A stretch of 64,000 nt of DNA from Prochlorococcus marinus CUG1433 (lineage in GTDB: Bacteria > Cyanobacteriota > Cyanobacteriia > PCC-6307 > Cyanobiaceae): the NCBI GenBank assembly GCA_017644425.1, contig JAEPLN010000001.1:1240001-1304000 (forward strand). Reading direction: 5' to 3'. The notes beneath the pieces were generated by a model. It did no database searches. It was not told the origin of the DNA and worked only from the letters and a program-made list of their open reading frames with translations. This document shows, piece by piece, positions 5,323 to 17,033 of the stretch; within the stretch, counting starts at the first letter, position 1; every line of letters begins with the position of its first letter. A program made the translations under genes and the position numbers.

Positions 5323-5680
5323 TAAATTAAGAGCATTTAAAAAAAATATTTCAATCCGCTAAAAGTGAATTATTTCTATTTTTCAATATTTATTTACTTT
5401 GCTACTGGTAGAATAAGATTTTTTTTCTCTATTTAATAGCCATAAAATCGCAATAATACTTAAAGGAATTAGGATAAAATCTAAAGACATTAAAAAATTA
5501 CTATGTAGTTTCTTTTTAGCAAAAGTATATTAATTTGGCAGCCATATAATTAATTACCTAATATTTTGGTAATTAGATAATGCAATAAAATTAATTTTGG
5601 AATTAAGCTTAAGAAAAGTGTTTGATTATAAGATTATTTTGTCAGTCTCATTAATAACTTAATTTTGTGATTGGATTCAA
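5323..5680. other. Gene-poor AT-rich stretch
   Basis: Apart from the 35-aa microprotein at 5383-5490, nothing coding is seen here on either strand. The sequence is mostly A/T runs up to the hairpin at 5681. Confidence 0.6.
5383..5490 (-). CDS. Single-span membrane microprotein, 35 aa
   Basis: ATG at 5490, TGA at 5383. Residues 3-19 are hydrophobic (LDFILIPLSIIAILWLL), followed by a short basic tail (NREKKSYS). The size and layout resemble small thylakoid subunits, but no known photosystem or cytochrome subunit is recognised. Confidence 0.4.
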   Translation of the reverse strand: MSLDFILIPLSIIAILWLLNREKKSYSTSSKVNKY

Positions 5681-5712
5681 AGAGCTTGCCCGTATCCCTA
5701 CCTGCAAGCTCT
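5681..5712 (-). ncRNA. Candidate small RNA hairpin with GTAGGGATAC loop (copy 1)
   Basis: Read on the minus strand, a perfect 9-bp stem (AGAGCTTGC / GCAAGCTCT) closes a 14-nt loop, AGGTAGGGATACGG. The same architecture with a different stem and nearly the same loop occurs on the + strand at 7210-7241. The 5' side of this element points away from the hli gene at 5978. A changed stem with a conserved loop argues for a structured RNA. It may belong to the cyanobacterial Yfr sRNAs, but I cannot assign it to one. Confidence 0.5.
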
Positions 5713-5787
5713 CATGACGAATAAGTTAAATTCAGATTATCTAAACCTAACCGGCTAAGCACTTCCTAAATGCTATAACCTAATATT

Positions 5788-5807
5788 ACTAAGTAAATTT
5801 ACTTAGT
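5788..5807. promoter_or_regulatory. Perfect 20-bp palindrome upstream of hli
   Basis: The 20 bases from ACTAAGTAAA onward equal their own reverse complement. The site lies about 120 bp before the -35 box of the hli promoter. A dimeric regulator could bind here; alternatively it is a chance palindrome in AT-rich DNA. Confidence 0.35.
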
Positions 5808-5926
5808 GTGAGTATAAATGCTTATTTTATCGCCTATTATCAACATCCACATAAATTAATTCTGCTAGGACTGCTTGAATTCTTATAAGCGGCAAAAGTT
5901 ATAGGGCCTGAAACCATTCTTCGAGC

Positions 5927-5955
5927 TTTACAAAAATTAATACTTGTGTTACATT
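5927..5955 (+). promoter_or_regulatory. Promoter of the first hli gene
   Basis: TTTACA at 5927-5932, a 17-bp spacer, and TACATT at 5950-5955, followed after 22 nt by the hli ATG. The second hli locus has the same -35 box, the same spacer length and TATATT. The leaders downstream are also alike. Confidence 0.6.
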
Positions 5956-5977
5956 TAGTTACACTTATTTTTTTTAA

Positions 5978-6184
5978 ATGTCCAACTCAGGAGTTACAAC
6001 AGAATCAGGTGGTAGACAAAATATGTTCCCGTCTGAAACTAGACCTTACATAGACGAATCCGTTTCTTATGATGGGTATCCTCAAAATGCTGAAAAAGTA
6101 AACGGAAGATGGGCTATGATTGGATTTATTGCACTTATTGGTGCTTACGTTACTACTGGCCAAATAATTCCAGGTATTTTCTAA
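5978..6184 (+). CDS. hli: High-light-inducible protein (Hli), 68 aa
   Basis: The C-terminal half has the chlorophyll-binding one-helix motif AEKVNGRWAMIGFIALIGAY followed by VTTGQIIPG. The helix includes the E-x-x-N-G-R-x-A-M pigment-ligand pattern. The first 35 residues are polar and strain-variable in this family. Hli proteins sit in the thylakoid membrane, bind chlorophyll and carotenoid, and protect photosystem II assembly and function under light stress. It is a single gene with its own promoter. The terminal TTGQIIPG block is shared with the two hli genes on the other strand. Confidence 0.92.
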   Translation: MSNSGVTTESGGRQNMFPSETRPYIDESVSYDGYPQNAEKVNGRWAMIGFIALIGAYVTTGQIIPGIF

Positions 6185-6210
6185 ATATTAACTTTCATTT
6201 TTTCTATAAT

Positions 6211-6339
6211 TTAAGTTAAATTTGAAAAAAGGAAAAACCAAATAAACACTATTATATTAAGTCCGAATATTATCCCTAGAAATAGATAAGCAAATTTTTT
6301 GCCGATAAATGCAGTATCTGGTTCCAGCTTTACTCTCAT
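6211..6339 (-). CDS. Single-span membrane microprotein, 42 aa
   Basis: ATG at 6339, TAA at 6211. A polar start (MRVKLEPDTAFIGKKF) is followed by a long hydrophobic segment (AYLFLGIIFGLNIIVFIWFFLF). It converges on the hli gene with 26 bp between the stops. The family is not recognised. The layout, with a short cytosolic N-terminus and one helix, suits a membrane-complex subunit, but that is a guess. Confidence 0.5.
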   Translation of the reverse strand: MRVKLEPDTAFIGKKFAYLFLGIIFGLNIIVFIWFFLFSNLT

Positions 6340-6662
6340 ATAAAAAAATCATAAGACTATGACTTTAACAGTGTTTTATTAATTTTTTTATGTTTGAAAG
6401 TAAAATTAAGATTATTTAATTAATTATCAATCTTGACTATATTTTTTTTGTTTTATAAATATTGCCCCTAAATTAATAATTAAATCAATTTTTAAAAAAT
6501 TTCTTGTCCATAGTTAATAGTACAGTTGATTAGAAATACACTTATTTATTTTAAGGGAATAGTCTTAAACGATTATTAGTTTTTATACTATTTTTTATAT
6601 AATTCTAAAAATAAAATTTGAATATTTTTCTTTACACGAAACGAAGATAATTTAAAATGCAA
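6340..6662. other. Gene-free AT-rich stretch
   Basis: No supported reading frame, RNA gene or repeat is seen on either strand. Many T and A runs occur. It ends at the terminator of the minus-strand hli operon. Confidence 0.6.
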
Positions 6663-6692
6663 CAAAAAAAACCGAATTTTGAATTCGGTTTT
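6663..6692 (-). terminator. Intrinsic terminator of the hli pair
   Basis: On the minus strand the arms AAAACCGAAT and ATTCGGTTTT form a hairpin with a very short loop, followed by a run of eight T. It lies 24 bp past the stop of the downstream hli gene. It is nearly symmetric, so it could also act weakly on the + strand. Confidence 0.75.
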
Positions 6693-6716
6693 ATGATAAA
6701 GCAACTAGAAATAATT

Positions 6717-6857
6717 TTAAATAAATCCCGGTATTATTTGCCCAGTAGTTAGATAAGCCCCGATGAGAGCAATGAAACCAACCATAGCAAATCTTCCGTT
6801 AAGTTTTTCAGCTACAATTTTTTCTTTTTCTACAATTTTAGATTCTGTAGTTTTCAT
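6717..6857 (-). CDS. hli: High-light-inducible protein (Hli), 46 aa
   Basis: The ATG at 6857 overlaps the stop of the upstream hli gene by one base (TAATG), so the two are translationally coupled. After a charged leader (MKTTESKIVEKEKIVAEK) comes the one-helix chlorophyll-binding segment LNGRFAMVGFIALIGAY and the end TTGQIIPGFI. It acts in the thylakoid membrane as a photoprotective chlorophyll-binding protein. A longer frame that reads from the upstream gene into this one is an artefact of the overlap. Confidence 0.9.
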   Translation of the reverse strand: MKTTESKIVEKEKIVAEKLNGRFAMVGFIALIGAYLTTGQIIPGFI

Positions 6858-6964
6858 TAGAACCAACCTGGAATAATCTGTCCGGTAGTTACATAAGCAC
6901 CAACTGCTGCGACGAAACCCAACATTGCTGCCCAACCATTAAAACGTTCTGCTTCAGGAGTCAT
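6857..6964 (-). CDS. hli: High-light-inducible protein (Hli), very short, 35 aa
   Basis: ATG at 6964. The whole protein is little more than the helix: MTPEAERFNGWAAMLGFVAA then VGAYVTTGQIIPGWF. The usual Arg after N-G is replaced by Trp (NGW in place of NGR), yet E, N and M of the pigment-binding pattern remain. It is the first gene of a two-gene hli operon with a strong promoter 24 bp upstream. Members this short are known among Prochlorococcus Hli proteins and may work as heterodimers with the neighbouring product. Confidence 0.88.
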   Translation of the reverse strand: MTPEAERFNGWAAMLGFVAAVGAYVTTGQIIPGWF

Positions 6965-6988
6965 TTTTAAAAGAATAATTTGTAAACA

Positions 6989-7017
6989 AATATAACATAT
7001 TTATTTATTTATGTAAA
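6989..7017 (-). promoter_or_regulatory. Promoter of the hli pair
   Basis: On the minus strand: TTTACA (7017-7012), a 17-bp spacer, TATATT (6994-6989), then 24 nt to the ATG at 6964. The geometry and the T-rich leader match the promoter of the single hli gene at 5978. Confidence 0.65.
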
Positions 7018-7095
7018 GAAAATTTCTAGAAATTCATGATTTTGTTTGGTTAGTCTTAATAGTGCAACAAATATGTATCAAAATATACTCTTACG

Positions 7096-7185
7096 TCGAT
7101 ATGGTTTCTTGATTATGATTTTGAAAATTGGAAATATGAAATCACATCAAGAAACCTTTTTTTAAGTTATAAATCCTCATATCGA
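7096..7185 (+). terminator. Strong hairpin with T7 run, plus an outer alternative stem
   Basis: GGTTTCTTGAT at 7103-7113 pairs perfectly with ATCAAGAAACC at 7146-7156, followed by seven T (7157-7163): a terminator form with a 32-nt loop. In addition TCGATATG at 7096-7103 is complementary to CATATCGA at 7178-7185, so a second, enclosing stem is possible. No + strand gene ends upstream. It may end a small transcript or belong to an sRNA. Confidence 0.5.
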
Positions 7186-7209
7186 GCTAATTTAAATTAA
7201 TATATATTG

Positions 7210-7241
7210 AGGGTCAGCTAGTAGGGATACAGGTTGACCCT
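7210..7241 (+). ncRNA. Candidate small RNA hairpin with GTAGGGATAC loop (copy 2)
   Basis: AGGGTCAGC pairs with GTTGACCCT (eight Watson-Crick pairs and one G-T) around the 14-nt loop TAGTAGGGATACAG. Copy 1 at 5681-5712 has the same 9+14+9 layout and 11 of 14 loop bases. This copy points away from the hli pair, mirroring copy 1. A T-rich run follows at 7252-7258. Confidence 0.5.
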
Positions 7242-7308
7242 TATTAATGATTATTTTTTGAATTTAAGACAAGAATGAAGTTTCATAATGTGAATAATTG
7301 CTATAAAT

Positions 7309-15709: not shown

Positions 15710-15844
15710 ATGGACGAGCTTTCTGTATTGTCAATTTCATTATCTATAGCTTCTCTCGGGATATTTTTTATTTTTTTTGCTTCACACGATGATGATGATC
15801 AAGATGGTGGTAAGTTGATTAAATCATTCCAAAGAATTAATTAA
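15710..15844 (+). CDS. Single-span membrane microprotein with HDDDDQDGG motif, 44 aa
   Basis: ATG at 15710. The helix SISLSIASLGIFFIFFA is followed by SHDDDDQDGG and a basic end (KLIKSFQRIN). It shares its helix-plus-acidic-patch layout with the 59-aa protein at 14398. It converges on another microprotein with 2 bp between stops. Confidence 0.5.
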   Translation: MDELSVLSISLSIASLGIFFIFFASHDDDDQDGGKLIKSFQRIN

Positions 15845-15846
15845 TC

Positions 15847-15963
15847 TCAAGTAATTAAAACATTTAATAGAGATTTATAACCTATAAATCCTACATAAAT
15901 ACAACTTAAAAAAATAAAATAAACCTCTATTGTTCCAAGTCTTTTTTTCTTTAAAATTTTCAT
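15847..15963 (-). CDS. Single-span membrane microprotein, 38 aa
   Basis: ATG at 15963, TGA at 15847. The basic N-terminus MKILKKKRLG is followed by one helix (VYFIFLSCIYVGFIGY). Family not recognised. Confidence 0.45.
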   Translation of the reverse strand: MKILKKKRLGTIEVYFIFLSCIYVGFIGYKSLLNVLIT

Positions 15964-16040
15964 TTTTCTGGGATTTTACATGATTATTTTATTTAATCTG
16001 ATTTCTATTAACATGAGTATTTATTACATTAACTCTTAGA

Positions 16041-16913
16041 TTAAATAATTATTAACGTTAAGCCAAAAAATAAAAAACAAGTAAAAAATATTATTTTTTT
16101 GGTAATTTCTCTTTCCTCATTCTTAGCGAAAAATAACGAAATTACTGGAGATGTACTTAATAACGCCCAACCTATTCCTATAGGAAGAGTTTTAAATACA
16201 ATTTGTTGTAGCAATATTCCTACATTCGTTCCAAGAAGTATTGAAAGCAAAAATCTTCTTTGTTCTTTTTTTTCTATGTTTTTTAAGAAAAAATTGATTT
16301 TGAACCCTTTTAAAGTTATTAAAAAAATTATTGCACCTAATAATCTTATCTCAGTTGTAATGAACGGTGATAAATTGCTTTGTAGAAAAACCATCCTTGA
16401 AAAAAGACCTCCAAGAACAGCACATAAAACTGATAAAAAAGGAAAAGCAAAAATCTTAAAATTAATTTTTTCTGAGAAAGGTAAGTTTTCATCTTTAAAA
16501 TCATTCCCTTTTTTGAGAATTATGAATAGCGAAATCGATACTATGATTACCCCTATCCACGATTTAATCGTTAAATCTTCATTAATAAATATTTCCCCCG
16601 AAAAAGCAGCCATCAACGGAGAAAGAGTTTCTACAGATAAAGTTTTTCTTGTGCCGATTGTTTGTAATGACTTTAGGTAAAAAGTATCACCTAAACCAAT
16701 ACCTATTATTCCACTAACTAATAGGATAAATATGTTTTTTAATTCAGTTGAAGAACTAATATTGATAAAGGCAGGTGTAAAAATTAAAAAAGCTATTATA
16801 TTTTTTATTAAATTAATATCTATTGTTTTATATTTCTGAGTTTGCGAGCGCCAAATAAAGCACGCATAAGTCCAAGATGCAGCAGCTCCAAAAGCAGATA
16901 GGATTCCAATCAA
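16041..16913 (-). CDS. EamA/DMT-superfamily transporter
   Basis: 290 aa from a TTG at 16913; no in-frame ATG exists upstream. Ten hydrophobic segments are arranged as two EamA repeats: the first begins MIGILSAFGAAASWTYACF and ends near residue 130; the second begins near 155. The region GIGLGDTFYLKSLQTIG is a typical end of the first repeat. DMT proteins export metabolites such as amino acids or drugs by exchange with protons; the substrate cannot be told. A long reading frame on the opposite strand is its shadow. Confidence 0.8.
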   Translation of the reverse strand: MIGILSAFGAAASWTYACFIWRSQTQKYKTIDINLIKNIIAFLIFTPAFINISSSTELKNIFILLVSGIIGIGLGDTFYLKSLQTIGTRKTLSVETLSPLMAAFSGEIFINEDLTIKSWIGVIIVSISLFIILKKGNDFKDENLPFSEKINFKIFAFPFLSVLCAVLGGLFSRMVFLQSNLSPFITTEIRLLGAIIFLITLKGFKINFFLKNIEKKEQRRFLLSILLGTNVGILLQQIVFKTLPIGIGWALLSTSPVISLFFAKNEEREITKKIIFFTCFLFFGLTLIII

Positions 16914-16934
16914 AACAAGTAATTTTTAGAAATT

Positions 16935-17033
16935 TTATTTTATAAATTGAGTAAATGTTAAAAAGAATACATAAATAAGAATCAAAATCCCTGGTAGGTA
17001 CTGAATTAGTGATTTGAAATTATTTTTTTTCAT
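16935..17033 (-). CDS. Single-span membrane microprotein, 32 aa
   Basis: ATG at 17033, TAA at 16935, 21 bp upstream of the EamA gene on the same strand. The product is a basic start (MKKNNFKSL) and one helix (YLPGILILIYVFFLTF). It could share a transcript with its neighbours. Confidence 0.45.
   Translation of the reverse strand: MKKNNFKSLIQYLPGILILIYVFFLTFTQFIK

Follow-up and report, generated by a model that had tools for sequence, protein, structure and literature searches.

A hairpin of hli operon ends is probably shared with the small RNA Yfr20 and a predicted tiny RNA in Prochlorococcus

Two small hairpins lie on either side of a group of hli genes in Prochlorococcus marinus CUG1433, and the question raised by this locus is whether they are two copies of one small RNA or something else. 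Within the window (the whole stretch of 64,000 nucleotides that was analysed), hairpin 1 occupies 5681-5712 on the minus strand and hairpin 2 occupies 7210-7241 on the plus strand, where a preliminary description had placed them. Its account of the layout is confirmed as well: 266 nt separate the start of hairpin 1 from that of the hli gene at 5978-6184, 246 nt separate the start of hairpin 2 from the hli start at 6964, and each hairpin points away from its gene. GTAGGGATAC is common to both loops, and the stems are unlike with pairing retained. Fold energies are -17.1 kcal/mol for hairpin 1 (z -5.76) and -17.0 kcal/mol for hairpin 2 (z -4.43), equalled by 0 of 200 shuffles in both cases. The loop, described as 14 nt and open, has this length but is probably not open, since GUA/UAC pairs are predicted to close a GGGA tetraloop inside it.

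Three open reading frames, which we take to be hli genes by the signature AEKVNGRWAMIGF..TTGQIIPG, align over this signature: one of 68 aa on the plus strand (5978-6184), divergent from Yfr20, and two on the minus strand, of 46 aa (6717-6857) and 35 aa (6857-6964), the latter divergent from hairpin 2. At 1e-3 the hli genes of the window have no match in Pfam, and none passed the NCBIfam cut-off; the name therefore rests on this signature and also leans on PMC2518516.

Judged within the window alone, the likeness of the two hairpins goes only modestly beyond chance. Fifty hairpins with a 9-bp stem and a 14-nt loop are present, and a loop 10-mer is common to this pair only; 4 of 60 Markov shuffles also produced a loop 10-mer in common (at least 4 G/C), a control in which overlapping hairpins were allowed. 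The observation is taken as real because the hairpin is conserved: a pair with the same layout is found again beside hli in other genomes, and the covariance model matches the hairpin in 98 of the 101 Prochlorococcus genomes (E up to 0.001). In alignment A1, whose members were selected by loop or by Rfam match, 95.8% of cells are paired, 7 of the 14 pairs are changed on both sides, and the covariation score is reached by 0 of 500 shuffles. The genome itself holds five GTAGGGATAC sites, two of which are these hairpins. The others, at 112454, 126251 and 1527958, do not fold into such a hairpin; one of them is complementary, by eye, to a glnA-like coding sequence, which was taken as chance.

By its covariance match, hairpin 1 is the 3' hairpin of the small RNA Yfr20 (RF02367). 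The cmscan match at 5687-5775 on the minus strand scores 95.4 bits, where the gathering score is 44, and covers model positions 1-89 of 89, and R1 gives 53.3 bits for 5680-5713, with the cap GUA-GGGA-UAC. Rfam places the 3' boundary of Yfr20 within the right arm of hairpin 1, and the published length of 89 nt would likewise stop inside this arm. On the RNA, the lead UCGUCAUG is immediately upstream of the hairpin, and the U-run after it is weak (CUCUUUGAAUCC). A promoter is predicted at 5783-5812, with CTCA at 5812-5809 and the -10 element TAATAT at 5788-5783. Across 26 Yfr20 loci, CTCA is present in 24 (CCCA in the remaining two) and TANNAT in 25, with a start-to-start spacing of 24 in all 23 loci having both; TCGTCATGAG is seen by eye in 26/26. 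The 5' end of Yfr20 is expected at the AGCATTTAGG block, with promoter-like blocks upstream at constant spacing, as read from the sequence.

In the accessible part of the description from MED4 (PMC2518516, Steglich et al. 2008), Yfr20 is located near hli genes, accumulates more under high light, and is transcribed both from its own start site, mapped at 1336435, and in a dicistronic transcript with the ORF upstream. The 5' end is mapped only in that strain, and the Yfr20 match in one genome (G015) is exactly 1336435-1336523. The hairpin 1 locus agrees with this RNA in its place beside hli, its 5' part and its predicted promoter with a -10 element. Yfr20 as described there has limits that end inside the hairpin, and that part of the paper carries no visible link to hli operon ends or to hairpin 2. 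Yfr20 is an abundant RNA, and no function for it was found in the literature searched.

The covariance model finds many more copies of the hairpin. In five genomes, 17/17 hairpins have an hli gene within 2 kb, against 0.37 expected, counted after removal of hairpins on the opposite strand and the weakest of the hli-like matches and, for G004 and G024, on the hairpin-bearing contig only; further copies beside hli genes, named beforehand as support, thus exist. R1 was run on 80 of 120 stretches in one set. Of 65 matches, eight on the opposite strand and two duplicates (L052, L056) were dropped; the remaining 55 copies comprise 27 that are Yfr20 or hairpin 2, 27 on the same strand downstream of hli units (among them L082, where the contig ends and only an ORF35 relative is visible) and one elsewhere. 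The hli-divergent layout thus applies to both window hairpins and fails as the sole pattern. Hairpin-free hli loci also occur, at 558997-559388 in this genome and at 658638-659028 and 1085728 in a MED4-like relative, and the second operon at 1534 kb of a MIT9515-like relative carries none. At the family level, 6 of 121 genomes match, five of them of the same genus; the sixth match (L301 in G164) is 59 nt long, GC-rich and without the cap, and was rejected on reading. The hairpin is found in 0 of 13 genomes of the same class. The best 80 of 582 viral hli loci gave nothing beyond one 15-nt match (E 0.7), attributed to chance, and none of 4 viral contigs picked out by pattern carries the hairpin; a phage-borne hli element was rejected, the viral loci being without the hairpin.

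The copies downstream of hli units were examined at the ends of ORF59 operons, which were selected by the ORF, i.e., by gene context, independently of the hairpin. Among 62 distinct ends (L321 and L384 are the same place and were counted once), 52 have the GGGA cap, 6 another GNRA cap and 4 no such cap. Of the six other GNRA ends, two have broken stems (L370, L371), and in a third, L362, the cap is left open by RNAfold. The motif is seen in 0/7 distant ORF59 paralogs, and hli44-ORF35 units also bear the hairpin. Orthologous ORF59 ends have rewritten stems (GAGTGTTTGTCA, GAGAGCTTGCTT, GAAAGTCAGC) with cap and lead constant. The family hairpin has a stem of ~8-12 bp with compensated rewriting and, in most copies, the cap UA[GGGA]UA; UCGUCAUGAG often stands ahead of it, and a U-run follows at operon ends. 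In sets partly retrieved via the covariance model, a U-rich tail (at least 6 T among 9 bases, the count starting with the final 3 bases of the right arm) is found at 101/111 unique ORF59 ends and 14/14 ORF35 ends; the lead pattern is present at only 7/14 ORF35 ends. At hli operons, the hairpin would thus quite probably serve as intrinsic terminator and mRNA 3' end, ~23 nt past the last ORF. Strong terminators seem rare in MED4, where an ARNold signal was reported in 11/337 3'UTRs (PMC3898218, part of the text). Termination at Yfr20 ends and at the window hairpins is doubtful, as a U-rich tail occurs at only 12/36 unique Yfr20 ends and the U-runs of the window copies are weak. The cap also differs in 21 of the 36 unique Yfr20 sequences, which read GU[GGGAU]AC or GU[GGGGU]AC.

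The simplest alternative is that all copies are plain terminators: hli cassettes would have been duplicated and exchanged together with their terminators, Yfr20 and hairpin 2 would have inherited one, and nothing would read the loop. On this view GNRA caps are simply favourable for termination, and loop variants that keep GNRA can also be explained by a stable cap. Whole hairpins are common to several copies, such as GTCAGCTAGTAGGGATACAGGCTGAC in hairpin 2 copies and ORF35 ends, and two operon copies of the MED4-like relative have identical ends. A terminator, however, needs neither conservation of the lead nor closure by A-U pairs, and orthologous ends vary in stems and spacers while the cap and the upstream lead UCGUCAU stay constant. 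Moreover, most Yfr20 copies retain the hairpin although their U-run is weak. Plain termination is possible as the whole explanation, with a chance well below even.

Hairpin 2 (R1, 48.2 bits for 7209-7242) has the same cap, GUA-GGGA-UAC, and it shares with Yfr20 the hairpin alone, lacking both the Yfr20 5' part and the lead. RF02367 does not match 7210-7241 at E up to 10, no other Rfam family matched hairpin 2, and the remainder of the 3.2-kb stretch gave chance-level Rfam matches only. The comparison with Rfam (Yfr families) that had been proposed thus places hairpin 1 in Yfr20 and hairpin 2 in no family. A promoter is predicted at 7175-7203 on the plus strand, with CCTCA at 7175-7179, an 18-nt spacer and TAATAT at 7198-7203. 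CCTCA is present upstream of hairpin 2 in 16/16 aligned loci, and the 18-nt gap to TANNAT, directly before the hairpin, is likewise seen by eye in 16/16. From this fixed arrangement, an RNA of ~40 nt consisting of the hairpin only is predicted, with a putative start at 7210, the 7th base after the -10 element as at the mapped MED4 Yfr20 start. The U-run of hairpin 2 is interrupted in this strain. Two copies of a structured small RNA had been proposed; a structured, covarying element is supported, and two copies of one RNA are not, as Yfr20 ends in hairpin 1 and hairpin 2 is a hairpin-only element with its own predicted promoter.

Hairpin 2 could instead terminate longer same-strand transcripts, such as readthrough from the hli gene at 5978-6184 running antisense to the hli pair. 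Many loci do have a same-strand hli gene ~1 kb upstream, and a high-light-induced antisense RNA, asMED4_15721, is known from the same island (PMC2518516, in part). Against this, CCTCA-18-TANNAT keeps its spacing directly upstream while the intervening bases differ, and in the MED4-like relative and others no same-strand hli gene is located upstream of hairpin 2 in the stretch examined. This origin of hairpin 2 appears rather unlikely.

Taken together, the hairpin is very probably a shared 3'-end module of hli transcripts that is also carried by Yfr20, as its own 3' end, and by a predicted tiny RNA, hairpin 2, which would be almost solely the module transcribed from its own promoter. That the module includes a conserved recognition cap is an evenly balanced proposal. 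A trans-acting reader is suggested by the constancy of cap and lead amid changing stems and flanks; that a factor, most likely an RNA-binding protein or an RNase, recognises either of them is tentative and falls somewhat short of even. Such a factor would set the stability, translation or location of hli mRNAs, and the stand-alone RNAs, including Yfr20 with its rise in high light, would titrate it off these mRNAs. A decoy role for them seems unlikely, if conceivable. Still more doubtful is the full scheme for the hli regulon, in which one protein binds mRNA ends with the lead and UA[GNRA]UA and light-regulated stand-alone copies, acting as decoys, set how much of that protein is free.

A further possibility is that hli mRNAs are processed near the lead, freeing the hairpin as a 3'UTR-derived small RNA, with Yfr20 and hairpin 2 as versions with their own promoters. 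The module is indeed a discrete piece past the last ORF; the hairpin alone, however, offers little unpaired sequence for pairing with a target, and we know of no processed fragment from hli mRNA 3' ends. ApcZ from the apc operon of Synechocystis is a precedent for such an origin (PMC8136909, in part), and the occurrence of Yfr20 both from its own start and within a dicistronic transcript would also fit (PMC2518516, in part). Processing of this kind is distinctly unlikely.

An unpaired GTAGGGATAC had also been suggested as antisense seed that pairs with target mRNAs, and this fits less well. The loop sequence is mostly constant, loops can seed pairing, and the variant loop of L362 is open in RNAfold; in both window hairpins, however, the loop is predicted to form the small GUA/UAC helix with its tetraloop, and the complement TATCCCTA or its reverse occurs outside these hairpins only 4 times in 19 hli loci, at no common place. 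Of 8 tetraloop variants at ORF59 ends, 6 retain GNRA, against an expectation of one in three for each blind single change (post hoc P 0.02; two AUAA ends, L356 and L361, taken as one event, L367 excluded, two of the six on broken stems). The loop thus mostly folds as UA[GNRA]UA, and variants tend to preserve the GNRA type, not the exact sequence, which is only suggestive and argues, without proof, against an unpaired seed; pairing through the loop is improbable. UAGGGA resembles the eukaryotic hnRNP A1 site and AGGGAU the CsrA site (ANGGAN), and both likenesses were set aside because the variants GUGA, GAGA, GCAA and GUAA break them.

Linking the Yfr20 hairpin to hli operon ends through the shared 3'-end module gives this RNA a concrete set of partners and a mechanism that can be tested, in organisms whose protein regulators are few; the look-alike hairpins at the ends of hli units hint at a common control point for these genes. 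Should the cap indeed be read by a factor, a stress regulon of one of the most abundant photosynthetic organisms would have an mRNA-end code defined by both sequence and structure, possibly with a very small RNA as decoy. We know of no binding of Rbp2 or Rbp3 to hli transcripts or to this hairpin. These cyanobacterial RRM proteins bind photosynthetic mRNAs and represent a candidate type of reader, as a lead only (PMC11500504, in part). ApcZ, too, is an RNA element that lies at the 3' end of an operon linked to photosynthesis and is tied to photoprotection; it acts on ocp translation, whereas the present hairpin is repeated at many hli operons (PMC8136909, as far as available). Yfr1, Yfr2 and Yfr10 are small RNAs of the same organisms (PMC6778093, in part); unlike them, Yfr20 is the only Rfam small RNA family above cut-off at this locus. 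The join of the Yfr20 hairpin to hli operon ends was not found in the literature searched, a search that had Voigt et al. 2014 outside it.

One near-match to the hairpin lies downstream of a ubiquitin-like gene, not of hli. Coleman and co-workers reportedly described, in 2006, a 48-bp repeat in island 5 of MED4. A repeat search of the island-5-type stretch returned hli gene copies for the most part, together with some AT-rich repeats; the hairpin pair came up as an inverted repeat.

The hairpins beside the hli (high-light-protection) genes of the window, hairpin 1 at 5681-5712 on the minus strand and hairpin 2 at 7210-7241 on the plus strand, are present with the layout claimed in the preliminary description, and both fold far better than their shuffles (z -5.76 and z -4.43, respectively). 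The 14-nt loop is not open as described there: in both hairpins, GUA/UAC pairs enclose GGGA, a GNRA-type tetraloop. Taken from the window by itself, their likeness is a modest coincidence, some shared loop 10-mer being found in 4/60 shuffles; the case for the pair rests on conservation. A single hairpin family is located at the ends of hli units and on two stand-alone RNAs, one known and one predicted.

A covariance model of the hairpin, R1, was built from 25 hairpins, initially picked for their loop or because Rfam matched them. Pairing is kept in 95.8% of the cells of the underlying alignment, and 7 of the 14 pairs have changed on both sides, confirming the proposed covariation; its score is reached by 0/500 shuffles. 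The hairpin is conserved in related strains: within the genus, R1 matches 98 of 101 genomes (E up to 0.001). At E up to 0.05, matches occur in 23/37 genomes, that is, in 23/24 of the same genus and 0/13 of the same class. A family-wide sample gave matches in 6/121 genomes, five belonging to the own genus; the sixth, outside it, was rejected. Named genomes were also scanned with a pattern, and R1, applied to 80 stretches among the matches listed, recovered 58/59 from Prochlorococcus and 0/21 from other organisms. In viral hli loci (the best 80 of 582), nothing better than one 15-nt match at E 0.7 was obtained. No report of the family or of hairpin 2 was found in the literature searched, which included few subscription papers.

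More copies do stand beside hli genes: in five genomes, all 17 hairpins are less than 2 kb from one (0.37 expected). We sorted 55 copies into classes using gene context. Nineteen (class a) end operons that combine hli genes with an ORF of 59 aa (ORF59), and eight (class b) end hli units of other kinds, mostly a single 44-aa hli gene with an overlapping 35-aa ORF (ORF35); in both classes, the hairpin follows the stop by ~23 nt. Eleven copies (class c) are Yfr20, 16 (class d) resemble hairpin 2, and one near-match lies after a ubiquitin-like gene. The latter, in locus L081 of a same-genus genome (~15758-16966, minus strand), is a long ORF with a ubiquitin-like start (MQIFVKTITGKTI...), 55 nt before the near-match, and may be a contamination.

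ORF59 (MNLGLLFLKVNTLGVITLSELDWI...) terminates hli operons (loci L068, L064, L075 and others), as ORF35 (MDFISKKQGYVPL...) terminates other hli units. Neither Pfam (at 1e-3) nor NCBIfam (at E 1) gives a match for ORF59. It was used as an anchor, to avoid selecting hairpins by their loop. Some match is present in 90/101 genomes, 13 of them with a distant paralog only (best E above 1e-20), which leaves the ORF proper (E below 1e-20) in 77/101. The 70 loci studied, 30 given by the tool and 40 chosen for ORF diversity, comprise seven distant paralogs, none with the motif, and 63 loci with the ORF proper, which represent 62 distinct places. Among these 62 ends, the cap is GGGA in 52, another GNRA loop in six (GAGA twice, GUGA twice, GCAA, GUAA) and neither in four. 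The lead just 5' of the hairpin, [CU]GUCAU, is found at 95/111 unique ORF59 ends and 7/14 ORF35 ends. Orthologous ORF59 ends carry at least three different stem sequences, with cap and lead unchanged. Changed caps stay GNRA in 6/8 cases, with the pair of AUAA ends treated as a single event and L367 excluded, versus one in three per blind single change (P 0.02, post hoc). The shape of the cap thus seems to be part of what is kept, which makes the open antisense seed suggested earlier less likely. This argument is weakened by two of the six other-GNRA ends, L370 and L371, where the stem is broken, and by L362, whose cap RNAfold leaves open; the GCAA of L360 and the GAGA of L422 are closed.

Hairpin 1 in itself is not new: Yfr20 (Rfam RF02367) matches at 5687-5775 on the minus strand with 95.4 bits, and is above cut-off in 26/60 related genomes. 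According to PMC2518516, Yfr20 was found in MED4 as an abundant 89-nt RNA, the only ncRNA to rise on transfer from dark to high light; it has its own start site and is also co-transcribed with an upstream ORF. The same paper describes an hli gene between this ORF and Yfr20 in MIT9515 and MIT9312, and the order in the window (ORF at 6211-6339, minus; hli at 5978-6184, plus; Yfr20) looks like that arrangement. Both the length published there and the Rfam model put the 3' limit within the right arm of the hairpin at its end; hence, unless the RNA extends a few bases further, its hairpin is incomplete. All 26 Yfr20 loci, as read by eye, have the lead UCGUCAUGAG before the hairpin. Yfr20 is the main exception to the kept GNRA cap, with GU[GGGAU]AC or GU[GGGGU]AC in 21/36 unique sequences and GUA[GGGA]UGC in 3/36. 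Between the CTCA and -10 elements of its predicted promoter region, at 5789-5808 (minus strand), there is also a strongly kept near-palindrome (in relatives, GTAAGTAATTTTACTTAC), perhaps a regulator site.

Hairpin 2 matches no Rfam family; it is new to Rfam and not a copy of Yfr20. Of the two copies of one small RNA proposed earlier, the common hairpin is retained and the common RNA is not. Upstream of hairpin 2, in 16 loci of its kind among the R1 matches, little is kept except CCTCA and TANNAT. These are 18 nt apart (by eye) with differing bases between them, and CCTCA lies at a variable distance, 34 to 38, from the hairpin; a promoter would behave in this way. The Yfr20 start mapped in MED4 (PMC2518516) is the seventh base after TATAAT; by this rule, hairpin 2 RNA is predicted to start at 7210, the first base of the hairpin. 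An unbroken U-run follows directly in 14/16 loci (by eye) and is interrupted in the window strain. From sequence, then, the RNA would be ~40 nt, hairpin and tail only. Just upstream, at 7103-7163 (plus strand), another hairpin, GGTTTCTTGAT..ATCAAGAAACC, which has a large loop, is followed by TTTTTTT; this stretch diverges in relatives.

That the family hairpin ends hli transcripts is well inferred from its position after the last ORF and from the U-run, present at 101/111 unique ORF59 ends and 14/14 unique ORF35 ends (sets partly fetched via R1); it would act there as a terminator. Such a role is notable given MED4 RNA-seq, for which PMC3898218 gives terminator signals in only 11/337 3'UTRs. 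Less certain is the proposal that a trans factor would recognize cap and lead, and that Yfr20 and the predicted hairpin 2 RNA would compete for it. One candidate class of reader is the RRM proteins, to which photosynthetic mRNAs are bound in other cyanobacteria (PMC11500504). Recognition with competition is opposed by the many Yfr20 copies with weak U-runs and variant caps and by hli genes without the hairpin: it is absent at the hli pair 558997-559388 of the own genome (G000; 1.70 Mb, 4 contigs), at several hli genes of the genome carrying L064 and L065, and at the second operon of another same-genus genome. Loci L064 (12604) and L065 (2730) are themselves two operon copies separated by ~572 kb; both contain hli genes and ORF59, and their hairpins are identical. 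In the window, a short hairpin distinct from the family, AACCGAATTTTGAATTCGGTTTT at 6663-6692, has a T-run on its minus side and probably terminates the hli pair. Shortly before the hli gene at 5978-6184, positions 5948-5965 (plus strand) read GTTACATT-TA-GTTACACT, a putative site resembling the HLR1/RpaB motif.
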